Source of the DNA: Salinivirgaceae bacterium
GTDB lineage: Bacteria > Bacteroidota > Bacteroidia > Bacteroidales > SZUA-534
Reading direction: 5' to 3'
Assembly (NCBI GenBank): GCA_016342715.1
Contig: JAEINW010000032.1
Span: 1 to 32,297, forward strand
DNA: 32,297 nucleotides
Shown in pieces: positions 16,745-31,872 of this stretch (its first letter is position 1; each line of letters opens with the position of its first letter). The translations under genes and the position numbers were made by a program. The notes under the pieces are model-generated. The model saw only the letters and a program-made list of their open reading frames with translations, was not told the origin of the DNA and did not search any database.

Positions 16745-17003
16745 TTACTCAACAATAATTTTCTTAATAAATTTAGCTTTTGATGTCACTACTGTTAAGA
16801 AATATATTCCCTTTGGTAATTGATCAATTGCCATTGGTATTAAATTCATTTTCTTTCTGTCAGGAACATTTATTGAAAATTTAGAAACCATATTCCCTTT
16901 AAAATTTGTAATCATTATTGTTATTGATGTATATGGTTCCAATTCTGTAAATATAAGGGTTAAATCACCGCTAATATATGGATTTGGATATATTTGAATT
17001 TCA
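16745..17003 (-). other. T9SS type A C-terminal sorting domain of the 2905-aa protein
   Basis: 'IQIYPNPYISGDLTLIFTELEPYTSITIMITNFKGNMVSKF...LPKGIYFLTVVTSKAKFIKKIIVE'. Confidence 0.85.
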
Positions 17004-20000
17004 TCATCTTCACCCAGAACAAACTGATCCCAATCTACTTTAATGGTTTTGTGAATGGTAAACTTGCCATCATAATCCACTTGTTTTAAACGATAATAGG
17101 CTATTCCATCAACTGGTATTTCGTCAAGAAAAGTATAATCTATTTGAGCGGTGCTATTTCCAAAGCCACTAACCTTGCCAATGGTGTAAAACATTTGAGC
17201 ATCCTCGGAACGCTGAATTTCAAAATAATCATTATTTTTTTCTGATGCGGTTCCCCACATTAATTCAACATCATCAATGTTTGAGTTAGCAGCAAAATAT
17301 ATTAACTCAACAGGTAATGGGTTTGATGCGTCACCAGAACCCAGAGTTATAATTTTTTCGGAGAAAGAAACTGCTGTGCTAGAGGTAAATGATCCACCCA
17401 TTTGAGTATGTCCGGCACTAAATGTTGTTCCACCAAAATTATCCCACGATGCTCCGTTCCAAACCACAACTTTAAGTTTTTCACGTTCTGTTTGGTCTGC
17501 CGATACATCACTATTCCCATTCCAACTTAAACTAATGTTGGCATTTGAAGAGCCGTTGTCAGTAATTTTCCAGTATTCTTTTGTACTAATACTAGTAATT
17601 GCTAGCGCATCAGTAGGGTTAAGATTTGTAACCAAACTTTCAGCAGTTGCGCTGGTATGTAAATATTCTACATCCCAGGTCAAACCTGCTGTTGATACAT
17701 TATGTACACCTGCATAACCCCATTGTCCATTTGTTCCTACTGGGAATATAAATTCGTCACCACTGTTGGCTAGAACTTTTGATAATTTTCCGTTAATATA
17801 TGATGATGATGAACCATTTTCAGGAGTAATCATAGCATCGGCCTCCATTAATAAGGTATTTGTACCTGGGTTTATTAACCCTGAGGTTAATGTTAATTCA
17901 TTGTCGATTGTTACGTTTCCGTTTAGGTTTAAGCCATTTGCATTAGCCAATTCAAAATTATTAAAGGCTGATGCACCAGAAAAGTTTCCATTAACTGTTT
18001 GTAGAGCATTTCCATTAAGAAGTATTTTAGCGGTACCAGATCCACCATCAAAAGTACCTCCTGCATATGTAAAGTCGCTTTCAATAAAAATATTTCCTCC
18101 TGTTCCGGTGTTGAAAGTTCCTGAGTTAATTACAAGTTCACCAAAAATATCATTACCACTCGATTCGCCATTATAGGTTCCACCATTGACGGTGACAATT
18201 CCATCAATATCAATTATATTGTTTTTACCACTATTAAAAATTCCGTTAGTGATATTTAGATTTCCTTGAACAGATAGATCCTTATTTGAAGCATTATCAA
18301 AGTCTGGGCCGTTGAGGTTGAAATTTTCACAAATTACAACATCGTTATTAGCCAGCTCTTTGGTTCCTGAACCACTTAGTGTTAAATTCCGCAGCGATGT
18401 TAATCCCGACAATATATTGTAATTTCCTGAACCCGTATATTCAATGCCGCCACCTGCACATGAGAAAAATGTTAAGTAATCTCCTGCTGGAAAACTAATG
18501 CTTGATGAATTACTCACTATTTTAATATTGCCCGTACCATTTACGGTTCCTAATCGGTGATGTTCAGTTCCTTCTATAGTTAGTGTAGCCCCTGATTGAA
18601 TCTCAGTTTTATATAAATTAACATCATTAACGTTAAAAGTCAATTCGTCTCCTGTTGATACAATTAGCACAGCCCCTGTTGGTGCAACACCATCGGTTGG
18701 TAGCAATTCGTTAAAAGTGTTAGCATTAGTAATATTTCCTGAGCTATTTGTAGTGTATGTGGCTACATTATTGGGGATGGCATTGTCTATTCCAGCAAAA
18801 TAATCACCACTAAGGTCATTGTCAGATACTGAATTAAAGCTATATGTGACGGTTTGTGAAGCTTCGTCAACTTCACTAGTTGAATATTTATTTATTAATT
18901 CTGTAGGATTATTTTCTGATAAAATACGTGCAGCAATATAATCTGATAGGGCATATCCACCTTCAGTAATTAAGGCATCATTTTCATCATATTTTAAGAT
19001 TATATCCGAAGTAAAATTAGTTAATCCATTTGAACGCAATATCCAATAATATTGTAATACATTATTAATGTCTCCGCTTGCTAGTTCATCGCTTCCATCA
19101 TTAATAACCGGATGATACTCGTTTGCTGGTCGCACGATGAAACTTCCTTCTGTTGTTCCGCTTGTTTTACCTGAACTTGATAAATTAAGAGTTACAGGTG
19201 TATATTTTGACTGACCAATGGGGAAAATAAAATCAGTTGTATAATCGACTGAAAAATTCTTTTTAATACCATTGTCCTGAAAGGAACTATTGGTTTGAAT
19301 CATATTTAGAAGGGTGAAAGATTCCACTTCTTCGATAATGGCGTTTGAGCCAAATTCTAAAAGACTTCCACCTATATTAAATACGCCACGTTGTAATCGT
19401 AATTTTGTGTCAATAACAAAACTATGATCGTTATTTGAAACTTTTACACCATTGCTATTATTTATGGTCATAATTCCTATATGACTTGACCCTATTGTGC
19501 TTCGTTGTAAATTTTGCTGGCTTGCACCTAAAAATTGGAGACCATAACCAGAAGAACTTATACAGGAACCATCGATGGTAACATCACCTAGTAAATTAAT
19601 TGAATAAGAATCTGAATTTAAAGTTCCAGCACTTATTACTAAATTATTATTTATGCTTATGTCTTTTTCTGCCGATAAGGTTCCTGTACCTGATTTTATT
19701 AAGTTGTAAAAATCTTCTGTGCCGCTACCTGAAATGCTTTGGGCATTTTCTGAATTAAAGGTTGTTGTATTTGCACTACTTGTATAATCTCCATTATTTA
19801 TTAAATTTCCACCAATTGTTACATTTAATGAATTGCCATCAAATGTGGCATCAGTACCAATGGTTAGATTGCCTGTTAAGGTTAATGGTAGTGATTCTAA
19901 AATAAGATCCAGATTATCGGTTAAACTGCCATCGGCAAATAAGGTTAAATTATTTAATGGAATACTAGAATTGATTCCAAAATTATTTTGAGCTTCTGGA

Positions 20001-23000
20001 GTATTTTCGTTTCCAATAGTTATAGTCGAACCAGTAACATCATTACTGGTAGGGTTCAAATATAAGGCTGCCATTGCTGGAGAACTTCCGTTTTGTCTTA
20101 CTATGGTTAGTGATCCGTTTGTATATGTAAAATCACTACCATCGTTTAAAACCTCAAGCATTCCTCTGTTTGGTTCATAATCATTGATGTCTGAATTCAC
20201 ACCAATAATAACATTTCCACCAGTCTGGTTATAAGTTAGTACCCCTGAATTATTTGTGGTTAAGCGTCTAATTTGGGTTCCTACTTTTAGCGTTCCGCTT
20301 GCAACGAAAAGTTTTGCATTACCCGATGAGCCATATTGAATAAAGTTATCGTTAGAACTTCCATCTTCCAAATCAAGCGTTCCTCCATTGATGGTTAACA
20401 GACCATCCAAAGTTATTCCACCTTCGGTTCCAGTACAATTTAAGGTTCCAGCAGTAAGTTCTAATGCGGCTGAGCTAGGAATTGAAAATGGATTTCCAGT
20501 GGTTAAATTGATATTTATATCTGCATCATTTATTATTAGTTTACCATTTTGTAGGTCAAAGGATTTATTAGCTATTGTATTTGTTGCTCCTTTTAAGGTA
20601 AAACTTTCATTAAATGAAAAGCTATTTGTTTGATTAAGACCTTTATTAACAATAACTCTGTATAACTCTGGTTCTGCTGTTGAAGTTCTTGAGTAATAAT
20701 TATCAGATGCCCCTTGTAATTCAAGTATAACTCTTTCTGTGCTATTTGAGTTCCATAAATCAATGGCATGCGAGTTATCTGAGCCATGCAAAAGATTACC
20801 TTTTAAAATTATTTTATGTTCCACATTGTTAGTTCCCAAAGACTGAACTTGCAAATTCCTATCTCCTAAATTACTCACTGGGTCGATTGTAAAATCAATA
20901 TTTCCATTTACAGTTAAAGTTATTGCCATTGCTTGACTTGGTAATTCAACGGTTCCTCCCAACCAAGTGCCGATTACTAAATTACCTTGAATGGTAGCAT
21001 CTTGCATGAATTTAACCGTACCATTTCCTTGGATAATTACATTTGCGTTGGTTGAAATTTCCTGATCGATGGTGTAAGTAGCCGATTCCATCATTAAATT
21101 GGGGATTGGTGTTGGAATTGCATTTAATGTGTTGTTACCTCCAAAGTATAAGAAGTATGAATCCTGATTGCTTCCAAAATCACCAAAATCGCCATTAACT
21201 ATTGGAGCAGCAGGAGCATTAAACGAAATCATTCCAGTTCCAGAAACGGTGCCTAAATTAAAAGTTCCCGCAATTAAAAATTGGAGTCTTGCTACATCTT
21301 CAGATCCTGCATCAGGGTAAGTGTCATAATCATGACTGAACTTTACAATTCCTATGTCAGGAATAGCTGCTTGCACATTTACTCTGTTTCCATCTTGAAT
21401 AATAATAATGCTACCAGCTACTGGTACCTCTTGGGTTCCATTACCAGTTGGGTCATTTTTCGACCATGTTGCGGCAGTATTAAAATTACCGGCTTGGCGA
21501 GAATAATAAACATCAGGTGCTCCAGCAAAACGGCTAGGGTTTCCTGCTGTATAGCTTGCTTCTTCTAAAATAAATCCATCGTTAAAAGTAATTTCATTGC
21601 TTGTTTTGTTATACCCGTTTTCTGTTGATTGAGAATATGGGTCAATATCTAATACTTTTCCTGCTTTAAAATTATTAACATTACCACCATCTTCATCCGA
21701 TGCATCATGGGTGAATATATAAGATGAAATTGTTGGTAACTCTGTAAAATCTGAGTATTGAACTTTCCAATAATATGATAAAATATCTCCACCATTTCCA
21801 ATAGTCATTGGAAGCTGTGCATCGGCAACTGAAATATTAATATATCCATCATCACTGAAATTTGATAGGGTTGCAACAGCTGGTGTATATCTTATGGTTG
21901 CATTAGCATCAGTACCCAAAGGCAAGGTAATTGTTTCATTGGCATCGATGTACATATTTAATCCACCATCTGATGCATTACCAGATGTTTGAATCATTTT
22001 GGAGTTATCAAAAATGCCCGAAATACTTGCATTTGATCCGAATAGAGTAAGCTTTTCTGAATTAATATCGAATATACCATCGCTAAGGGTTAAGGTTCCA
22101 GTAATATTTAAGTCTCCAGATAAATTTACATTATTCGTATTATCAATATCCATATTTTGAATGATACCGTTATCGGAGCTTAAGTTTTGCAGCGAAGAGC
22201 CATGTAAATAGATTTTTCCTGTATTGTCAAATTTACCTACTGAATCGGCAATAAAAACATCTCCATTTAGTTCTGCTGTGAATTCTCCATAATCAAAAAC
22301 ACCTTTTTCAAGACGGAACTCACCATTTACTTTAAATGCAGTGGCTAGTCCTTCAACGATAACAAAATTTTTATCATTCACAGTTTTGTTCACAATAACA
22401 TTATTAAACAATTGTAGGGTTGGTAAGTATAAATTTGTTTGTTTTGAGCCTCCAAAGGTTGTGGTATTATTTCCGGTAGTATATGTGGCTCCCGATGAAA
22501 TATTTAGGTCGCTTCCTATGCTAACGTCAAATCCATTGGCATTAAAGTCTTCATTTTCAATAACTAAATCGTTATTTAACTCAATGTTAGATAATAATTG
22601 AATATTATTGTTTTGATTGTTCCGTAAAATAAAATTATGAAAAGGAGCTGTTGTTGATATGGTTGCCGTGGCAGAAGTTCCTGAAAGATTATCTAAAATA
22701 ATGGTTCCTCCAGAAACATTTATATTTGTGGGAGCGCAGGCAATTGATATTGCATTTACAGCCCCATTCGAAAGATCATTTAAATGAATGGTGCCACCTT
22801 CCATAGTAAATCCACCCAATTCGGCACTTAAATCAAATATTGCAGCATCGGTTCTATTGTTTGTTAAATAAAAATCGCCACCAGTATGGGTGTAATTCAT
22901 TTTTGCTGTGGCAGAACTGGCTGCACCGCTAATTCTAAATTGAGAGGCGTAAACTTCACCACCGTTAATTTCCAATGAATTGGCTGATGATTCTGCACGA

Positions 23001-25462
23001 TAAACAATACCATGTGAGTACGAAGTATGGAAGGTTCCTTTATTTATTTTCAATAAACCGTATAAATAGATTCCTTGGGTTCCATCTCCATCATTAATAC
23101 CATTAGAACTAGAGTAGGATAATCCTGAATAATCAATGGCATTATGAACATCAACTATTGAGGATACTGCGGTTACAGAAACAAAAACATTGTCGCCATT
23201 AAGAATAAGTGCAGCATTTGCACCAATGCTGTAATCTCTGGTTCCTTCAACTAAAGTTGGAATATTTATATAACCCTCTAGGGTTAATTTACCAGCCTTA
23301 ATCCATAAAGATTTTCTGTTTTCAGGATTTTGCTCATCTGTTATATCCCACTCTGCATTATTATCACCAAATAAAGAGAAATAGCTTTTGTTGGTGGCAT
23401 TTATTGTTAAGCCATAGGTTTGATTACTTCCTTTATCAATAACTAAATAATACAAATCAGTAGTTCCTTCGCAATAAAATGTATTGTTTGAGGCTCCACT
23501 AAAAACAAGTGAAACGGCTCCATTGCTTGTTCTTGTAATATAATCAGGACTAGTTTCGTTCGTTAATCGCATACTTCCTTGATTTGTAAAATCGCCTAAA
23601 ACGGTGAAAACATGAAAGTATTTGTGATAATTTCCATATCCACTTGAAGCTACAGCATCGGTTGCATTTGCAGTTCCAACTGAAATTGAACCTGTACTTT
23701 CAATAGTAACATTCCCTGAAACTGCCAGATTTAATGTAGTGCTTGATGAATTATCATTAATTTTAAAATCGCCATTTTCAACAATTAAATTATTGTTAAT
23801 TGTGTAATCAGCTAATAAAGTAGCGGACCCACTTGATAAGTTTATAGATAAATTGTTAAAAGTTCTTTCTTGATTTAATTTTATTCCATCGCCATATATT
23901 TCTACTGTTCCACCATTTTCAGCATCTGTAAAATTGGTGGCTGTTGCACTCGGAAAATTATCTTCAGCACCAGTTCCAGGGTCATAGCCTGACATTAAAA
24001 TAGTTCCATCTCCATTAATAACATTAAAATTATGATCATGCGAAGAGCTAAGGTCTAATGCTCCGTATATATCTAATTTACTAATTTCTATTTCATTGTT
24101 AGACGACAGAATGGTAATTTTCTTACCCGATGGAATGGCAACATAATCTGTGGCTGAAGGAATTTGAGAATTAGAATTCACATACAAAGGATTGCTTGCT
24201 CCATCAAGAGTCCATGAACTTGCATCGCTCCAATTACCTAATGTTGAATAGGCGTACCATGTTTTTGGTGGAATTGGTGGAGTCTCTGAAAATTCATTAA
24301 TTCTAAAATTATCAAAAGCTACCCCATCGTCATTTCCACTGCCATTTGTTCCGAATAGCATTTTAAACTTTACGTTGGCATTATTTTCAAGTTCCGCAGG
24401 TAATTCTAATGATGCCGTTTGCCAAGCTAAATTATCTCCTGTCCAACCGTCGGTATTATTGGCAATTCCATCAATATCAGCATCATTATACCAATTTGTG
24501 CCTTGTCCAACAGCTCCTAGTGCCGCCCAACTTGTTCCATTGAAATATTCAATAGTTACTCCATCATTTGCTTTGGTGTTATATCTTAAATCAAATTGTA
24601 AAACTAAGTTGCTTTTTCCAGTTAAATCAAATATACCGCTGGTAACTGTTGCATTGGTGTTACTGCTATAATTATTAAATGGAGTGTTGTGCCAATAATT
24701 TCCATCGCTTCCGCTGAATTGGGCATCGGCTGCATTATCTCTTACCCAGCCTGATGAAGAACTCCAACCTTCATTATCGGTATCAAATGTTTGAGAAAAT
24801 GCACTTGTGGTATAGTATCCGGTAATTTTAAAATTGTCAAACCCAACACCATCCTTTTTTACACTTCCATCACTTGCAAATCTTACTCTAAACTGTACGG
24901 CAGAATTATCTTCCAATTCCGAAGGTAGACTTAATGATGCAGTAGTCCATGTATCATTATTTCCTGACCATCCATGAATATTGTTACCAAGAGCATCCAC
25001 ATCCGAATCATCATACCAATTGGTTCCATCACCAACTGAACCAAGAATATTCCAACTTGAACCGTTATAATATTCAATATTAAAACCATCCCATCTACTT
25101 TCCGAATTATAACATATATCGAGTTCTAATGTTAAATAACCATAATTTGATAAATTAATTACCTCACTTGTTACATAAACATCCATATCATCAACATAGT
25201 TATCAAAGGGATCGGTATGCCAATAGTTACCATCGCTTCCAGTAAATTTAGTGTCGGCTGTATTATCTCTTAACCAACCCGACGAGCTTGTCCAGCCTTC
25301 ATCATCAGTATCAAAATTGTAAGTTGCAACCGTGTTCTGTGATTTTACAGAAACAACAAATAACAAAAGTAACACAACTAATAATGGTAACTTAAACACA
25401 TTGATTGAATTTTTCATTGACGTGTTGCGACCATGTCTGACAGCAAAGTTTAAAGATTTCAT
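16745..25462 (-). CDS. Giant secreted beta-helix/adhesin-like protein with T9SS type A sorting domain
   Basis: 2905 aa; likely true start at the internal Met (ATG at 25417) giving signal peptide MKNSINVFKLPLLVVLLLLFVVSVKSQ; two tandem ~170-aa 'FDTDxEGW' domains; long repetitive 'SGNVTI..GS..NNNLVI..GTL' beta-solenoid-like body; C-terminal 'IQIYPNPYISGDLTLIF...GIYFLTVVTSKAKFIKKIIVE'. Confidence 0.93.
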   Translation of the reverse strand: MKSLNFAVRHGRNTSMKNSINVFKLPLLVVLLLLFVVSVKSQNTVATYNFDTDDEGWTSSSGWLRDNTADTKFTGSDGNYWHTDPFDNYVDDMDVYVTSEVINLSNYGYLTLELDICYNSESRWDGFNIEYYNGSSWNILGSVGDGTNWYDDSDVDALGNNIHGWSGNNDTWTTASLSLPSELEDNSAVQFRVRFASDGSVKKDGVGFDNFKITGYYTTSAFSQTFDTDNEGWSSSSGWVRDNAADAQFSGSDGNYWHNTPFNNYSSNTNATVTSGIFDLTGKSNLVLQFDLRYNTKANDGVTIEYFNGTSWAALGAVGQGTNWYNDADIDGIANNTDGWTGDNLAWQTASLELPAELENNANVKFKMLFGTNGSGNDDGVAFDNFRINEFSETPPIPPKTWYAYSTLGNWSDASSWTLDGASNPLYVNSNSQIPSATDYVAIPSGKKITILSSNNEIEISKLDIYGALDLSSSHDHNFNVINGDGTILMSGYDPGTGAEDNFPSATATNFTDAENGGTVEIYGDGIKLNQERTFNNLSINLSSGSATLLADYTINNNLIVENGDFKINDNSSSTTLNLAVSGNVTIESTGSISVGTANATDAVASSGYGNYHKYFHVFTVLGDFTNQGSMRLTNETSPDYITRTSNGAVSLVFSGASNNTFYCEGTTDLYYLVIDKGSNQTYGLTINATNKSYFSLFGDNNAEWDITDEQNPENRKSLWIKAGKLTLEGYINIPTLVEGTRDYSIGANAALILNGDNVFVSVTAVSSIVDVHNAIDYSGLSYSSSNGINDGDGTQGIYLYGLLKINKGTFHTSYSHGIVYRAESSANSLEINGGEVYASQFRISGAASSATAKMNYTHTGGDFYLTNNRTDAAIFDLSAELGGFTMEGGTIHLNDLSNGAVNAISIACAPTNINVSGGTIILDNLSGTSATATISTTAPFHNFILRNNQNNNIQLLSNIELNNDLVIENEDFNANGFDVSIGSDLNISSGATYTTGNNTTTFGGSKQTNLYLPTLQLFNNVIVNKTVNDKNFVIVEGLATAFKVNGEFRLEKGVFDYGEFTAELNGDVFIADSVGKFDNTGKIYLHGSSLQNLSSDNGIIQNMDIDNTNNVNLSGDLNITGTLTLSDGIFDINSEKLTLFGSNASISGIFDNSKMIQTSGNASDGGLNMYIDANETITLPLGTDANATIRYTPAVATLSNFSDDGYINISVADAQLPMTIGNGGDILSYYWKVQYSDFTELPTISSYIFTHDASDEDGGNVNNFKAGKVLDIDPYSQSTENGYNKTSNEITFNDGFILEEASYTAGNPSRFAGAPDVYYSRQAGNFNTAATWSKNDPTGNGTQEVPVAGSIIIIQDGNRVNVQAAIPDIGIVKFSHDYDTYPDAGSEDVARLQFLIAGTFNLGTVSGTGMISFNAPAAPIVNGDFGDFGSNQDSYFLYFGGNNTLNAIPTPIPNLMMESATYTIDQEISTNANVIIQGNGTVKFMQDATIQGNLVIGTWLGGTVELPSQAMAITLTVNGNIDFTIDPVSNLGDRNLQVQSLGTNNVEHKIILKGNLLHGSDNSHAIDLWNSNSTERVILELQGASDNYYSRTSTAEPELYRVIVNKGLNQTNSFSFNESFTLKGATNTIANKSFDLQNGKLIINDADININLTTGNPFSIPSSAALELTAGTLNCTGTEGGITLDGLLTINGGTLDLEDGSSNDNFIQYGSSGNAKLFVASGTLKVGTQIRRLTTNNSGVLTYNQTGGNVIIGVNSDINDYEPNRGMLEVLNDGSDFTYTNGSLTIVRQNGSSPAMAALYLNPTSNDVTGSTITIGNENTPEAQNNFGINSSIPLNNLTLFADGSLTDNLDLILESLPLTLTGNLTIGTDATFDGNSLNVTIGGNLINNGDYTSSANTTTFNSENAQSISGSGTEDFYNLIKSGTGTLSAEKDISINNNLVISAGTLNSDSYSINLLGDVTIDGSCISSSGYGLQFLGASQQNLQRSTIGSSHIGIMTINNSNGVKVSNNDHSFVIDTKLRLQRGVFNIGGSLLEFGSNAIIEEVESFTLLNMIQTNSSFQDNGIKKNFSVDYTTDFIFPIGQSKYTPVTLNLSSSGKTSGTTEGSFIVRPANEYHPVINDGSDELASGDINNVLQYYWILRSNGLTNFTSDIILKYDENDALITEGGYALSDYIAARILSENNPTELINKYSTSEVDEASQTVTYSFNSVSDNDLSGDYFAGIDNAIPNNVATYTTNSSGNITNANTFNELLPTDGVAPTGAVLIVSTGDELTFNVNDVNLYKTEIQSGATLTIEGTEHHRLGTVNGTGNIKIVSNSSSISFPAGDYLTFFSCAGGGIEYTGSGNYNILSGLTSLRNLTLSGSGTKELANNDVVICENFNLNGPDFDNASNKDLSVQGNLNITNGIFNSGKNNIIDIDGIVTVNGGTYNGESSGNDIFGELVINSGTFNTGTGGNIFIESDFTYAGGTFDGGSGTAKILLNGNALQTVNGNFSGASAFNNFELANANGLNLNGNVTIDNELTLTSGLINPGTNTLLMEADAMITPENGSSSSYINGKLSKVLANSGDEFIFPVGTNGQWGYAGVHNVSTAGLTWDVEYLHTSATAESLVTNLNPTDALAITSISTKEYWKITDNGSSNANISLSWNGNSDVSADQTEREKLKVVVWNGASWDNFGGTTFSAGHTQMGGSFTSSTAVSFSEKIITLGSGDASNPLPVELIYFAANSNIDDVELMWGTASEKNNDYFEIQRSEDAQMFYTIGKVSGFGNSTAQIDYTFLDEIPVDGIAYYRLKQVDYDGKFTIHKTIKVDWDQFVLGEDDEIQIYPNPYISGDLTLIFTELEPYTSITIMITNFKGNMVSKFSINVPDRKKMNLIPMAIDQLPKGIYFLTVVTSKAKFIKKIIVE
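24295..25336 (-). repeat. Tandem duplication of a ~170-aa N-terminal domain in the 2905-aa protein
   Basis: 'FDTDDEGWTSSSGWLRDNTADTKFTGSDGNYWHTDPFDNY...DGVGFDNFKI' followed by 'FDTDNEGWSSSSGWVRDNAADAQFSGSDGNYWHNTPFNNY...DGVAFDNFRI'. Confidence 0.85.
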
Positions 25463-25786: not shown

Positions 25787-28030
25787 ATGAAAACATCCCG
25801 GAGAGATTTTATTAAGATATCAGCATTAGGGCTAGGGGCCGCTACTCTTAGTGCTTCGGTAGCAAAGGCGGCTACTAAGTCGTACTTTGGAACTGAGAGA
25901 TTAAATAAGCTTATGACCCATAGAACTCCAACATACTGTGAGGTTTGTTTTTGGAAATGTGCTGGATGGACTTATACCGATGGAGCAGATAACATAAAAA
26001 AGATAATTGGTCATCCCGATGATCCACATTGTAATGGGCGTTTATGTCCTCGTGGAACCGGTGGAGTTGGCATGTATCATGATGAAGATCGCTTAAAAAC
26101 TCCATTAATACGGGTTAAGGATGAAAACGGCAATCAAACTTATAGGGAGGCTACTTGGGATGAAGCCTTTGATAAGATTGCTGAAAATATGCAACGAATA
26201 GCCAAAGAACATGGACCAGAATGCATGGCACTATTTACTCATGGTTCTGGGGGTGCGTTTTGGGGACATTTATTAAAAGCATATGGATCAAAAAATATTG
26301 CAGCACCTTCGTATGCACAATGCCGTGGCCCGCGTGAGGTTGCTTGGATTGGAACTTTTGGCGAAGGTTTAGGTTCTCCTGAGCCAACCGATATTAGAGA
26401 CACAAAATGTTTGGTGTTGATAGGTTCACATATTGGCGAAAATATGCACAATGGGCAGGTTCAAGAAATGAGCGATGCCATTGATAAAGATGCAACTATC
26501 ATTACAGTTGATCCTCGTTTTTCAACAGCAGCGAGCCATTCCAAATACTGGTTACCAATTAAACCAGCCACTGATATTGCACTTCTTTTATCATGGATCC
26601 ACGTATTAATAAAGGAAGGATGGTACGATAAAAAATATGTTGAGAAAAATACTTATGGTTTCGATCAGTTAAAAGCTCATGTAAAATCATATACTCCAGA
26701 ATGGGCGTATGGTATTACCACTATAAAACCCGATGTAATTCGAAAAACAGCTCGCGAAATGTACAACGCGGCTCCTTCGGTAATTGTGCATCCCGGAAGA
26801 CATGTTACCTGGTATGGTGACGATACCCAACGGTTACGTGCTGTGGCAATTTTAAATGCCTTGTTAGGAAGTTGGGGACGCAGAGGTGGATTTTATATAG
26901 GTGATGGAATTTCAATTCCTTCGTTTCCGCATCCCGAATATCCAAAACCAACAAGAACTTGGCGCGATGCGATGCCCGGCAAATTTCTTTTGGCCGATTC
27001 AGCATTGGCTAATGGCGTTTGTGATGCTACCATACCATCTATTGAAAGTGATTGTTCCATTAAAGGTTGGATAGTAAATGGTACAAATTTAATATTCACA
27101 CTTCCTGATATAGAAAACACAAAAAAGGCTTTACAAAATCTCGAGTTTTTGGTGGTAGTTGACACCATGCCAATGGAAATTACTGGCTATGCCGATGTGG
27201 TATTGCCTGAATGTACGTATTTAGAAAGATACGATAGCATTCGTACTTCAAAGCATCGGGAGCCAACCATAGCATTACGAGCACCTGCCGTTGAACCAAA
27301 ATATAACTCAAAACCCGGTTGGTGGATGGCAAAAGAGCTGGGACATAAATTAGGATTAGATGATTTTTTTAAATACGATCATATAGAGGAAGTTTTAGAT
27401 TGGCAACTCAAGAAAGTAGGTAGTTCATTGGAAGAAATGAAAAGAATTGGTGTTAAAAAATTAGAGAGAGATGCTTATATTCCTTTATATTTCAATGAGA
27501 ATGAAGATATAGGATTTTTTACCAATACGGGCAAAATTGAATTGTATTCAACCTCTTTTGCAGAGGAAGGTTTTGATCCTATGCCAAAATACACGGCGCA
27601 TCCAGAGCCTCCTGAAGGTTATTACCGTTTAAATTATGGAAGAGCTCCGATGCATACTTTTAGTCGTACCGCAAACAATCCGAATTTAACCGATTTAATG
27701 GATGAAAATTCAGTTTGGGTGAATCCAAAAGTGGCCAAGCTTTGGGGCTTAAAAAATGATCAGCGTGTATGGCTTGAAAATCAGGATGGCATAGTTTCGT
27801 CATTTTCTATTAAAGTTCGTATAACTGAACGCATTCGTTGGGATTCAGTATATATGGTACATGGTTTTGGCCATAAAAACGAGAAGCTAACCAGAGCCCA
27901 TGGAAAGGGAGCTAGTGATTCGGAATTAATATCAAATGTAATGGTCGATCCTATAATGGGAGGTACCGGTATGCGTGGAAATTTTGTTACTTTTCATGTT
28001 GATAAACCAGAGAAAGGAGGGCTGTTATGA
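25787..28030 (+). CDS. TAT-exported molybdopterin oxidoreductase catalytic subunit (polysulfide/thiosulfate reductase PsrA/PhsA-like)
   Basis: 747 aa; TAT motif SRRDFIKIS; N-terminal FeS motif 'CEVCFWKCAGW...CNGRLCPRG'; 'SYAQCRGPREVAW' with a Cys at the likely Mo-ligand position; molybdopterin-binding C-terminal domain. Confidence 0.9.
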   Translation: MKTSRRDFIKISALGLGAATLSASVAKAATKSYFGTERLNKLMTHRTPTYCEVCFWKCAGWTYTDGADNIKKIIGHPDDPHCNGRLCPRGTGGVGMYHDEDRLKTPLIRVKDENGNQTYREATWDEAFDKIAENMQRIAKEHGPECMALFTHGSGGAFWGHLLKAYGSKNIAAPSYAQCRGPREVAWIGTFGEGLGSPEPTDIRDTKCLVLIGSHIGENMHNGQVQEMSDAIDKDATIITVDPRFSTAASHSKYWLPIKPATDIALLLSWIHVLIKEGWYDKKYVEKNTYGFDQLKAHVKSYTPEWAYGITTIKPDVIRKTAREMYNAAPSVIVHPGRHVTWYGDDTQRLRAVAILNALLGSWGRRGGFYIGDGISIPSFPHPEYPKPTRTWRDAMPGKFLLADSALANGVCDATIPSIESDCSIKGWIVNGTNLIFTLPDIENTKKALQNLEFLVVVDTMPMEITGYADVVLPECTYLERYDSIRTSKHREPTIALRAPAVEPKYNSKPGWWMAKELGHKLGLDDFFKYDHIEEVLDWQLKKVGSSLEEMKRIGVKKLERDAYIPLYFNENEDIGFFTNTGKIELYSTSFAEEGFDPMPKYTAHPEPPEGYYRLNYGRAPMHTFSRTANNPNLTDLMDENSVWVNPKVAKLWGLKNDQRVWLENQDGIVSSFSIKVRITERIRWDSVYMVHGFGHKNEKLTRAHGKGASDSELISNVMVDPIMGGTGMRGNFVTFHVDKPEKGGLL

Positions 28031-28560
28031 GATATGCAATGGCTATTGATACAAAAAAATGTGTAGGTTGCAGCGATTGCGTTGTCGCTTGTCAAACCGA
28101 AAATGATGTGCCTATTGGATATTGTCGCGATTGGGTAGTTGAACTAACCACCGGAACCTATCCTCAATTGGAAACTGAAATACGTTCAGAACGTTGCAAT
28201 CATTGTGATAATTCGCCTTGTGTGCGCTGCTGTCCTACGGGAGCCAGTCATTATGGCGAAGGTGGAATTGTTTTAGTAACCAAAAATAAATGTATAGGTT
28301 GTTCAGCCTGTATTGAATCTTGTCCTTATGATGCCAGATTTACGCATCCCGATGGTTATGTTGATAAATGTACTTTCTGTTTACACCGTGTAAAAAAAGG
28401 AATGGAACCAGCTTGTGTGGCAGTTTGCCCAACAAAATGCATGTATTTTGGCGATTTAGATGATCCCAATAGTCCGGTTTCAAAGGTACTGAAAACAAGA
28501 AAATACAAAGTGTTAGCTCCTGAAGCAGGAACTAAACCAAATGTTTATTATTTAATATAA
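28027..28560 (+). CDS. 4Fe-4S electron transfer subunit (PsrB/PhsB/NrfC-like)
   Basis: 177 aa; four ferredoxin-type Cys clusters (KKCVGCSDCVVACQ, RCNHCDNSPCVRCCP, KCIGCSACIESCP, DKCTFC..PACVAVCP); start overlaps the upstream stop (ATGA). Confidence 0.93.
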   Translation: MRYAMAIDTKKCVGCSDCVVACQTENDVPIGYCRDWVVELTTGTYPQLETEIRSERCNHCDNSPCVRCCPTGASHYGEGGIVLVTKNKCIGCSACIESCPYDARFTHPDGYVDKCTFCLHRVKKGMEPACVAVCPTKCMYFGDLDDPNSPVSKVLKTRKYKVLAPEAGTKPNVYYLI

Positions 28561-28572
28561 AAGATGCAAGAT

Positions 28573-28677
28573 ATTAGTATCAAGTATCAAGAAGGAAAAT
28601 ATTGCTTAATAGCTAAATGTAATCTTGATACTTGAATCTTTTTTACTTGATACTAATTACTTAATACTTGATACTAT
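28573..28677. repeat. Heptad-periodic degenerate repeat (ACTTGAT/ACTTAAT), with an inverted copy, in the intergenic spacer
   Basis: Inverted copy TTAGTATCAAGTATCAAG at 28573-28591; direct copies ...cttgata cttgaat ctttttt acttgat actaatt acttaat acttgat acta at ~28624-28675. Confidence 0.7.
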
Positions 28678-28682
28678 AAAAA

Positions 28683-29624
28683 ATGAAAGAAGAATTAATT
28701 ATTAGCGGAAGAATGAATCCTAAAATTGACCCGGTACTTCATGCCTGGGGCTGGGAGATTCCAACCTATTTATTTCTTGGTGGTTTAGCCGCAGGATTGC
28801 TTTTTTTTGCCGGATTATATTATTTATTGGGTAAAGAAAAAGTGTATTCGGTAGCCGTAAGAAAAGCACCTGTTTTAATACCTATTATTTTAGTAGTGGG
28901 TTTACTCGCCTTGTTTATTGATTTGCATCACAAGCCTTACTTTTGGAGACTTTATACTACCATAAAAATTCAATCGCCCATGAGTTGGGGAGCTTGGACA
29001 TTAATGGCTGTAACTCCATTATCAATGGTTTGGGCGGCAATTAATATACGAGAATGGTTCCCAAATTGGGATTTGAAATATACTTGGATTAAAGATATTG
29101 AAGAATTCATTACAGGATATAAAAAATACATGGCATGGGCTATGGTATTGTTTGGTGTTATTTTAGGTATCTATACCGGAATATTACTATCGGCATTTAA
29201 TGCGCGTCCTCTTTGGAATACTTCAATTTTAGGACCTTTGTTTTTAGCTTCAGGACTCTCAGCTGGATCGGCTGTAATTATGCTGTTATCAAAGAATCAT
29301 AATGAGCGAAAAGTATTTGCTAGAATAGACTTGATATTAATTGGTATAGAATTATTCTTTATCGTTCATATGTTCATGGGATTTCAGGCAAGTACGCAAG
29401 TTCAGATTGATGCATCACATATATTTCTGGGGGGTGAATTAACTGCAGCATTTTGGATTTTTGTAGTTGTTTTAGGAATGCTTGTTCCCGCGGCACTTGA
29501 AGTTATGGAATTGAGAAAAATAAAAGTGCCTGTAATCATTCCGGTGGTTTTAATTTTATTTGGCAGCTTTATGTTGCGATGGTTAATAACCTATGGGGGA
29601 CAATTAAGCAGGTACCTGTACTAA
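28683..29624 (+). CDS. nrfD: NrfD/PsrC family integral membrane quinol-interacting subunit
   Basis: 313 aa; multiple TM helices; 'WGWEIPTYLFLGGLAAGLLFFAGLYYL' opening typical of NrfD/PsrC; directly downstream of A and B subunits. Confidence 0.88.
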   Translation: MKEELIISGRMNPKIDPVLHAWGWEIPTYLFLGGLAAGLLFFAGLYYLLGKEKVYSVAVRKAPVLIPIILVVGLLALFIDLHHKPYFWRLYTTIKIQSPMSWGAWTLMAVTPLSMVWAAINIREWFPNWDLKYTWIKDIEEFITGYKKYMAWAMVLFGVILGIYTGILLSAFNARPLWNTSILGPLFLASGLSAGSAVIMLLSKNHNERKVFARIDLILIGIELFFIVHMFMGFQASTQVQIDASHIFLGGELTAAFWIFVVVLGMLVPAALEVMELRKIKVPVIIPVVLILFGSFMLRWLITYGGQLSRYLY

Positions 29625-29649: not shown

Positions 29650-29768
29650 CAATACTTTTTTTATACTAAAATACTTGATACTTAATACTAATTGCTTGAT
29701 ACTTAATACTAAAATACTTAATACTTGATACTAATTTTTTGATACTTATAACTTGACACTAAATACTA
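29650..29768. repeat. Heptanucleotide-periodic degenerate tandem repeat (GATACTT/AATACTA)
   Basis: aatactt gatactt aatacta attgctt gatactt aatacta (a) aatactt aatactt gatacta ... gatactt ataactt gacacta aatacta; mostly 7-nt phase with few slips. Confidence 0.8.
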
Positions 29769-29776
29769 TTTAAAAT

Positions 29777-30292
29777 ATGAAAAAGAATAAATACATAAAT
29801 CCATATCTCGGAGGCGTATTGCTGGGATTAGTTTTATTGGCTTCTAATTTTATTTCAGGAAGAGGATTAGGTGCTAGTGGAGCCTTAAAAAGTGTGGTTG
29901 TACAGGGTGTAAATATCATTACTCCAGATCATGCTGAAAACGCTGTATTCTATAAAGAATATAACGATGCACACAAGAAAGGACCAATGAAATCGTGGTT
30001 GGTATTTGAAATGCTGGGTGTTGTGGTTGGTGCCTTTGTTAGTGGAGCATTAGCCGGAAGACTTAAATTTAAAGTGGAACATTCTCCAAAAATTACGTCA
30101 AAACGACGATTGGTTTTTGCTTTAATGGGAGGGGTTCTTTTTGGTTTTGGTTCACAATTAGGAAGAGGTTGTACTTCTGGCTCTGCATTGAGTGGAATGG
30201 CCGTGCTTTCAGTTGGAGGAATTATTACCATGGCTGCAATATTTGGTACAGGCTATGCTTTAGCTTATTTCTTCCGTAAAAATTGGATCTAA
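29777..30292 (+). CDS. YeeE/YedE family half-transporter (TsuA-like sulfur-species permease)
   Basis: 171 aa; 'GRGLGASGA' and 'GFGSQLGRGCTSGSALSGMAVLSVGG' YeeE/YedE signatures with a conserved Cys. Confidence 0.88.
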   Translation: MKKNKYINPYLGGVLLGLVLLASNFISGRGLGASGALKSVVVQGVNIITPDHAENAVFYKEYNDAHKKGPMKSWLVFEMLGVVVGAFVSGALAGRLKFKVEHSPKITSKRRLVFALMGGVLFGFGSQLGRGCTSGSALSGMAVLSVGGIITMAAIFGTGYALAYFFRKNWI

Positions 30293-30435: not shown

Positions 30436-31026
30436 ATGGGACCTTTAATAGTTAATGAAATAATATCGTCGAGTGTTAACTTTTTGATGGCTTTTTTAAT
30501 AGGAATAGGTTTTGGTTTTGTGCTTGAATCAAGTGGATTCTCGTCTAGCAGAAAACTGGCCGGAGTATTCTATGGCTACGATACAGTAGTGTTAAAAGTA
30601 TTTTTTACCGCCGCAATTACCGCTGCCATCGGATTGTTGTTTTTTAGCCTTTTTGGTTGGATCGATTTAAGCCTAGTTTATGTGAATCCAACATTTTTGC
30701 CATCGGCAATAGCCGGAGGCGTAATTATGGGAGCAGGGTTTATTATGGGTGGTTTTTGTCCAGGTACTAGTGTTTGTGCAGCAGTAATTGGAAAAATTGA
30801 TGCCATGGTTTTTATTGGCGGTATTATTCTTGGAATTATTGTTTTTGCTGAAGGCTATCCTTTATGGGAAAGTTTCTATAAAAGTGGATTCATGGGCACA
30901 CCAAGAATGAGCGATTGGTTAGGTTGGTCGCAAGGAGTTTTTGCATTTGTTATGGTGCTTGCGGCATTTGCCATGTTTTTTATTGGTGAGTGGGCTGAAA
31001 AAAAATTTCCACAAAAAGAATATTAA
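30436..31026 (+). CDS. YeeE/YedE family half-transporter (TsuA-like), second subunit
   Basis: 196 aa; 'GAGFIMGGFCPGTSVCAAVIGKIDAMVFIGGIILG' YeeE/YedE signature; N-terminal 'GFGFVLESSGFSSSRKLAGVFYGYD'. Confidence 0.88.
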   Translation: MGPLIVNEIISSSVNFLMAFLIGIGFGFVLESSGFSSSRKLAGVFYGYDTVVLKVFFTAAITAAIGLLFFSLFGWIDLSLVYVNPTFLPSAIAGGVIMGAGFIMGGFCPGTSVCAAVIGKIDAMVFIGGIILGIIVFAEGYPLWESFYKSGFMGTPRMSDWLGWSQGVFAFVMVLAAFAMFFIGEWAEKKFPQKEY

Positions 31027-31031
31027 ATCTT

Positions 31032-31048
31032 ACCTAAGTTGAGCGATT
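31032..31048. repeat. Copy of a 17-bp ACCcAAaTTGAGCGATT repeat family
   Basis: acctaagttgagcgatt; 2 mismatches to the 32245-32261 copy. Confidence 0.4.
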
Positions 31049-31227: not shown

Positions 31228-31872
31228 ATGAAAGATTTCTTTAAAAATATTAAACCACGAATAATTCTCGCAATAGGTATTATTCCCCTAGCTTTAATGC
31301 TTGCTTTTGTGCCTGAAAATAGAACAGTTCCTTATAAACTTACTATTGAAGAATTAGTTAACCAGATAACCGAAGGTGCACAATACTTTACTGCCGACCA
31401 AATTGCCGATTACATTGTGCAAAAAGATCCATCGATTCAATTAATTGATGTTCGCTCAAGCGATGAGTTTGATTCGTATCATTTGCCCGGAGCAATAAAT
31501 ATTCCTTTGTCAGATATTCTTTCGGAAGATTTGGAGGGCTATCTTGATCAGGATGTGAAGAACAATGTATTTTACAGCAATGGTACTGTTAATGCCAACC
31601 AAGCATGGATTATTTGTAAGCAGCGTGGATTTAAAAATAATTATGTATTGCAAGGAGGACTTAATTATTGGGCCGAAAATATTATCAATCCTCAAAAGCC
31701 TGACGACATTGCGCCAAGCGACGAATTTGCCAAGTACGATTTCAGAAAAGCAATGAGCGCCGCTTTAGGAGGAGGTACACTAGAAACAAAAACAGAAGAA
31801 GTACAAACTAATGCTGCATTGCCAGCTATAACAAAAAAGAAAAAGAAGAAAAAAGCTGCTGGAGGCTGCTAA
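31228..31872 (+). CDS. Membrane-anchored rhodanese-like domain protein with Ser at the catalytic Cys position and a poly-Lys/GGC C-terminus
   Basis: The ORF track begins at a TTG (31159); the more plausible start is ATG 31228 (214 aa). N-terminal TM 'IILAIGIIPLALMLAFV'; rhodanese motifs 'QLIDVRSSDEFDSYHLPGAINIPLSD' and 'VLQGGLNYW'; loop 'VFYSNGTVNANQAW'; C-terminus 'ITKKKKKKKAAGGC'. Confidence 0.88.
   Translation: MKDFFKNIKPRIILAIGIIPLALMLAFVPENRTVPYKLTIEELVNQITEGAQYFTADQIADYIVQKDPSIQLIDVRSSDEFDSYHLPGAINIPLSDILSEDLEGYLDQDVKNNVFYSNGTVNANQAWIICKQRGFKNNYVLQGGLNYWAENIINPQKPDDIAPSDEFAKYDFRKAMSAALGGGTLETKTEEVQTNAALPAITKKKKKKKAAGGC

Follow-up and report, generated by a model that had tools for sequence, protein, structure and literature searches.

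What might a rhodanese do once its active-site loop holds no cysteine, and why should such a protein end, after a run of lysines, in Gly-Gly-Cys? The question is raised by rhd, the last gene of a near-invariant operon, psrA-psrB-nrfD-YeA-YeB-rhd (YeA and YeB being the two halves of a YeeE protein), in the stretch of DNA analysed here, 32,297 nucleotides of a Salinivirgaceae contig (the window).

A rhodanese fold without its catalytic cysteine

The frame of the gene, rhd1, opens with an ATG at 31228 and runs for 214 codons to a TAA stop at 31870-31872; its landmarks are as follows.

31228..31872, forward strand: rhd1, predicted membrane-anchored rhodanese-fold protein of 214 aa with a Ser loop and a K-rich GGC terminus (ORF read)
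31261..31317, forward strand: hydrophobic segment near the N-terminus, residues 12-30, by hydropathy a predicted anchor whose charges suggest N-in/C-out
31423..31677, forward strand: rhodanese domain, residues 66-150 (PF00581, E 7e-16)
31576..31578, forward strand: Ser117 (AGC), standing where a catalytic rhodanese has its loop Cys (ORF and orthologue comparison)
31747..31860, forward strand: variable, basic, low-complexity linker, residues 174-211, including KKKKKKK at 31834-31854 (conservation profile)
31861..31869, forward strand: terminal Gly212-Gly213-Cys214, proposed end of a sulfur-bearing arm (96%, 99% and 99% conserved)

A Pfam scan of the product returns Rhodanese (PF00581) alone, at 58.9 bits against a cut-off of 22.2, and the motifs LIDVRSSDEF, HLPGAINIP and LQGGLNYW are all in place; the active-site loop reads NVFYSNGTVN, with Ser117 at the first position, where a catalytic rhodanese has its cysteine. 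The protein ends in KKKKKKKAAGGC (in a fuller reading, ITKKKKKKKAAGGC), its last cysteine being encoded by TGC at 31867-31869. The earlier note had thus read both ends of the problem exactly: a serine in the loop between intact motifs, and a cysteine as the last residue after poly-Lys-GGC. None of the NCBIfam models scores above its cut-off, and the protein therefore belongs to no curated family; an AlphaFold model, computed with three sequences as input, is poor (mean pLDDT 45). Judged by its profile matches, the product is a rhodanese by fold, without the defining residue of a catalytic rhodanese, and not a SoxY by family.

Pattern and family searches covered the window's own genome. GGC followed by a stop is matched 28 times in the DNA, and the long frames ending in this way are rhd1 and that of one other protein, a putative SlyD-like protein ending in CCGGC; a genome-wide sorting signal is thereby rejected for this genome. 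Its other readable rhodaneses keep the loop cysteine (HCLLGR, VCYTGQ, YCWTGQ, FCSSGV), and none of them has a terminal one. As a separate observation, AATTGAGCGATT occurs in three copies, one with a mismatch, at window positions 31037, 31180 (reverse strand) and 32250; two of them lie in the gap preceding rhd, and the third belongs to a downstream hairpin. This triple occurrence is reached by 0 of 100 shuffles.

The operon and its cassette

Upstream of rhd1 lie the other genes of the operon.

25787..28030, forward strand: PsrA/PhsA-type molybdopterin subunit with a twin-arginine N-terminus, RRDFIK (2vpw_A, E 6e-199, full length)
28027..28560, forward strand: PsrB-type 4Fe-4S subunit (profile matches)
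28683..29624, forward strand: NrfD/PsrC-type membrane subunit (PF03916, E 1e-43)
29777..30292, forward strand: YeA, membrane protein like the C-terminal half of YeeE/YedE, PmpA-like (profile matches)
30436..31026, forward strand: YeB, membrane protein like the N-terminal half of YeeE/YedE, PmpB-like (profile matches)

The molybdopterin subunit has the FeS and NrfD partners expected of the PsrA/PhsA type; against the PhsA model it reaches E 1e-138, which is below the cut-off of that model, and as a putative PsrA/PhsA-type enzyme its substrate could be polysulfide, thiosulfate or another compound. The two YeeE halves match Sulf_transp (PF04143) at E 2e-22 and 2e-12. In terms of TsuA, YeA is the counterpart of the C-terminal half and YeB that of the N-terminal half, and each has an invariant cysteine: Cys132 of GRGCTSG in YeA (104/104) and Cys108 of GGFCPGT in YeB (103/103). 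The exact gene order PsrA-PsrB-NrfD-YeA-YeB-Rhd is found in 87 of 108 loci and recurs outside the taxonomic order, and Psr genes adjoin the YeA-YeB-Rhd cassette in 93 of the 108, counts which describe psr operons that have rhd and not all psr operons, the loci having been sampled via rhodanese matches. Loci without the exact order are mostly cut by a contig end or have no Psr.

In other loci a related cassette lies next to an octahaem cytochrome that matches the tetrathionate reductase family model TIGR04315, with E values from 1e-173 to 3e-177. ORFs with eight haem motifs stand beside the cassette in 12 loci, and the octahaem loci also hold a thiosulfate-reductase-like cytochrome b; some cassette loci have neither Psr nor the octahaem cytochrome. 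Two unrelated S-S-bond reductases thus share one kind of tail.

A carrier might serve the YeeE pair only, bringing periplasmic sulfane sulfur to the channel for import, as has been proposed for SoxYZ and SoxT, while the adjoining Psr would produce or use up the same compounds with no docking of the tail. The YeA-YeB-Rhd core is indeed constant with or without Psr (which is missing in L050, L051, L136, L141, L143 and L142), YeB is fused to Rhd, with the tail kept, in about ten loci of the phylum and in L049, and the channel cysteines are invariant; the regular presence of Psr beside the cassette (93 of 108) nevertheless speaks against it. A TusA-family protein (PF01206) was also not found in the window's own genome by a search that was positive in 11 of 14 control genomes, so that the YeeE pair seems to be without a TsuB/YeeD partner, and import through a TsuB-like partner to a cytoplasmic acceptor is weakened. 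A role confined to the channel is therefore rather unlikely.

Other features of these neighbourhoods may be recorded here. In L090, L105, L127, L128, L130 and others, the psr operon has beside it, divergently oriented, a Rieske protein and a cytochrome b with a fused multihaem portion, which is ExtM-like and has about nine CxxCH; degenerate TACTTGATACTTAATACTAAT repeats occupy intergenic gaps of the psr operon (window 28625-28679 and 29660-29771); and a secreted, repetitive protein of 2905 aa with an apparent C-terminal sorting domain is encoded upstream of the operon (window 16745-25462, reverse strand).

Conservation of the loop and the terminal cysteine

Of 393 genomes searched within the same order, 144 held relatives at E <= 1e-15, and most of the alignments extended to the last residue. 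Orthologues were taken as the genes directly downstream of the YeeE pair in about 100 neighbourhoods; the 92 linked to Psr share a mean pairwise identity of 40%. At position 117 these have Ser in 87 cases, Gly in three, and Ala and Thr in one each, and Cys in none, while the terminal cysteine is present in 91 of 92. The single exception, L044, encodes a tail (KKAVQGGCS) in another frame, and a frameshift is therefore likely. The terminal cysteine is followed by zero or one residue and is the sole cysteine after residue 40 in 54 of the 92. An internal one, Cys130 (IICKQRG), which the earlier note had flagged, is kept in only 34% of orthologues and is thus unlikely to matter.

The conservation of the tail is sharply uneven: the mean frequency of the top residue is 0.63 in the domain and 0.32 in the linker (residues 184-210), and it rises to 0.96, 0.99 and 0.99 for the terminal Gly-Gly-Cys, directly preceded by the roughly 27 residues that form the least conserved part of the protein. 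From the conserved YxFR motif, which marks the end of the folded part, to the cysteine there are 34-52 residues (median 39), which if fully stretched would reach about 130 angstrom, by arithmetic at 3.4 angstrom per residue. The terminal cysteine is found in 92 of 93 Psr-linked orthologues. Among unrelated ORFs of 150 aa or more from the same loci, a cysteine within the last two residues occurs in 6 of 584, so that the terminal cysteine is not due to chance; the corresponding Fisher p of 3e-105 is indicative only, because the compared sequences are related.

Distribution across Bacteroidota

A phylum-wide search with a 17-row alignment matched 55 of 396 genomes at E <= 1e-18 and returned, besides the window, 29 loci from other families and classes of Bacteroidota, 28 of them with a readable frame (L187 being excluded). 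All 28 have a basic end closing in GGC, EGC or DGC, and all have Ser, Gly or Ala in the loop, never Cys; the terminal cysteine is the only conserved one of these rhodaneses. The co-occurrence of loop-cysteine loss with a terminal cysteine, which the earlier note had singled out as the point to check, thus holds throughout the phylum, alongside the YeeE pair and Psr genes. Codons and residues of the tail differ between its occurrences across the phylum, and an origin in reading errors or poly-A slippage is rejected on this ground.

This distribution suggests a hitherto unrecognised type of swinging-arm sulfur carrier. In the open-access literature on rhodaneses with YeeE, Psr, a terminal cysteine or an octahaem reductase, the arrangement was not found described; the protein would best be called a new variant of sulfur carrier, and many of its members are likely annotated simply as rhodaneses, an activity that is probably absent.

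Tandem paralogues carry the same tail

In many genomes the first rhodanese (R1) is accompanied by a second in tandem (R2), with Gly, Ala, Tyr, His or sometimes Cys in its loop. There is also a third (R3), a lipoprotein-like double rhodanese, in several instances with a visible canonical Cys loop. Among closed frames, the tail is found in 50 of 59 R2 and 18 of 33 R3. Since the loops of the paralogues vary while the tail stays, the constant element is the tail and not the serine. The tandem paralogues do not show a strict exclusion between loop cysteine and tail: 7 of 56 have a loop cysteine together with the tail and 3 of 56 have one instead of it, so that the relocation is no strict swap. The earlier suggestion that the thiol may have moved from the loop to the tail has, with this amendment, strong support from sequence evolution, through the coupling of loop-cysteine loss and terminal cysteine. 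As a whole the earlier interpretation is partly supported, since sulfur on that cysteine and its passage between the YeeE pair and Psr are putative. A loop cysteine without a tail, which the earlier note had named as contrary evidence, occurs only in the R2 of L116, L123 and L129, where the neighbouring first rhodanese keeps its tail and has no loop cysteine.

The tails of R1, R2 and R3 within one genome also resemble each other, matching at 9-10 of 13 positions as against 6-7 for shuffled pairings. R1 and R2 share 10.4 of 13 positions, as against 6.7 for shuffled genomes, a value reached by 0 of 5000 shuffles, and R1-R3 and R2-R3 behave alike; the shuffle ignores relatedness, and some of this matching may stem from gene conversion or from a recent duplication.

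Two groups of paralogues differ at their ends. The R2 of L116, L123 and L129, with LYCRxK or LYCKGG in the loop, lack a GGC tail and instead share the conserved end DFDEECPDLN; the R3 of L094, L106 and L111 are double rhodaneses without a basic tail, yet their ..VCD ends agree with those of their neighbours, GGCD or GGCN.

The paralogues bear on a further explanation, by which the protein would be a non-catalytic sensor or adaptor, with a Ser loop for binding an oxyanion (thiosulfate, for example) and a tail cysteine that is only a redox switch. The YSNG[ST] loop is well conserved among R1 orthologues, as this would lead one to expect, but the conserved operon contains no regulator and the tail is conserved on paralogues with differing loops; we regard such a role as very improbable.

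Predicted location, and the tail as a possible tether

Several features point to the periplasm. All 108 R1 orthologues have an N-terminal hydrophobic segment, with an N-in charge bias in 88; in most YeB-Rhd fusions inspected, six hydrophobic segments precede the rhodanese by hydropathy, which places it on the side of the YeeE N-terminus, i.e. outside. Together with the lipoprotein-like starts of R3 and the twin-arginine motif of PsrA, hydropathy and charge thus lead us to infer a periplasmic rhodanese domain.

The tail could, instead of carrying sulfur, be a tether keeping the rhodanese domain within the reductase/YeeE assembly, its terminal cysteine being lipidated or forming a stable disulfide, or its poly-Lys binding the membrane. 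A poly-basic stretch with a terminal cysteine is also found at the membrane-targeting ends of some eukaryotic GTPases, and over the 25 residues preceding the cysteine, 86 of 91 orthologues have more K+R than D+E; the basic residues are replaceable, though, and the cysteine is kept where they go (EEEEEEEEGC, TGGGGGGGC). A second anchor would moreover be redundant, since these proteins already have an N-terminal anchor, a lipobox-like start (R3) or a fusion to a multi-pass channel half, and the tail is absent from the other proteins of the window's genome. Tethering is accordingly an unlikely function. That one tail is common to three kinds of membrane attachment, a single anchor in R1, a lipoprotein-like one in R3 and a polytopic one in YeB-Rhd, argues that the tail is not an anchor but a functional arm or docking element, recognised by a partner that all of them share.

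A proposed sulfur-carrying arm

The protein is probably a membrane-anchored periplasmic sulfur carrier, with a rhodanese body and a terminal Gly-Gly-Cys arm, whose partner would be Psr, the YeeE pair or both. The rhodanese fold, having given up its loop cysteine, would serve as the body that binds substrate or partner, and the sulfur would be held on the terminal Gly-Gly-Cys of a flexible, mostly basic tail of about 40 residues. Once loaded with sulfane sulfur, as a persulfide or as a thiosulfate or polysulfide adduct, the tail cysteine would swing into the active site of the PsrABC-type reductase of the operon, to the outer mouth of the YeeE channel, or to both; this two-piece channel has its two conserved cysteines intact. 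The carrier would thus work like the GGC arm of SoxY, within a reductive system of the kind in which Sud-type rhodaneses partner Psr. It is from the observed loss of the loop cysteine, the conserved terminal cysteine, its linker, the operon and the matched paralogue tails that we infer sulfur on Cys214, its handover to PsrA or the YeeE pair, and the direction of its flow.

A broader proposal is offered tentatively, as somewhat less than probable: that Bacteroidota evolved, independently of SoxY, a swinging-arm carrier from a rhodanese stripped of its cysteine, and that the split YeeE channel and the tailed rhodaneses form a portable module that plugs into at least two unrelated reductases, the molybdenum Psr and the octahaem cytochrome. 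If so, these enzymes would use protein-bound and not free sulfur compounds, and an enzyme fold would have become a carrier, in convergence with SoxY, when its nucleophile was shifted to a disordered tail. A carrier of this kind would bear on two questions: how sulfane sulfur, being sparingly soluble or unstable, is delivered to Psr-type enzymes, and with what partner a YeeE-type channel exchanges it. The phylum-wide carrier would have one obvious working residue, encoded by the terminal codon, on which both questions would turn.

Comparison with known systems

The earlier note had compared the tail with that of DsrC. DsrC/TusE works through a cysteine on a flexible C-terminus, but it is cytoplasmic, has another fold and two tail cysteines, and a Pfam scan of the rhd1 protein gave no DsrC family match; the closest analogue of the tail is instead the C-terminal GGCGG of SoxY, which binds the sulfur substrate (PMC6067878) and whose GGC has been called the functional motif (PMC11237559). 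In both, a cysteine for the sulfur substrate (putatively so in Rhd) lies at the extreme C-terminus, flanked by Gly-Gly, in a protein that is extracytoplasmic (here by prediction). The body here is a rhodanese domain, whereas the SoxY domain PF13501 was not matched in the Pfam scan; no SoxZ partner is seen, the arm follows a long, mostly basic linker, and rhd is linked to reductases and not to the Sox oxidation set. No SoxY was found in 20 genomes of the family, a search in which the control genomes were equally silent, and no Sox genes (SoxZ, SoxXA, SoxB) were identified among the annotated neighbours.

Sud of Wolinella succinogenes, a rhodanese-type protein, passes polysulfide sulfur to Psr (PMC2754497). 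Here, too, the gene of a rhodanese-type protein is associated with psrABC, and the entry 1qxn, named sulfide dehydrogenase, is a weak sequence match to the rhd1 protein (E 0.002). We take 1qxn to be Sud. The single cysteine of Sud sits in the rhodanese loop, whereas here the loop cysteine is gone and the only conserved one lies in the terminal tail. Going by the title of a 1999 paper by Klimmek, cited in PMC2754497, Sud reportedly works through its single cysteine. The reductase resembles PsrABC/PhsABC in its FeS and NrfD subunits and in the full-length match of its Mo subunit to PsrA of Thermus thermophilus (2vpw), and differs in the fixed cassette of YeeE pair and tailed rhodanese appended to its operon. 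As in PmpA/PmpB, a YeeE split over two genes with one key cysteine per half (PMC11582611), and as in SoxT/TsuA, YeA and YeB together give a YeeE with one invariant cysteine each; at 171 and 196 aa the halves here are longer, and in many cases a tailed rhodanese is fused to one of them. SoxYZ, in turn, has been proposed to feed the YeeE-type SoxT (PMC11582611). By analogy, three elements would thus meet in the one cassette described here: the arm of SoxY, the supply of Psr by Sud, and the feeding of SoxT by SoxYZ.
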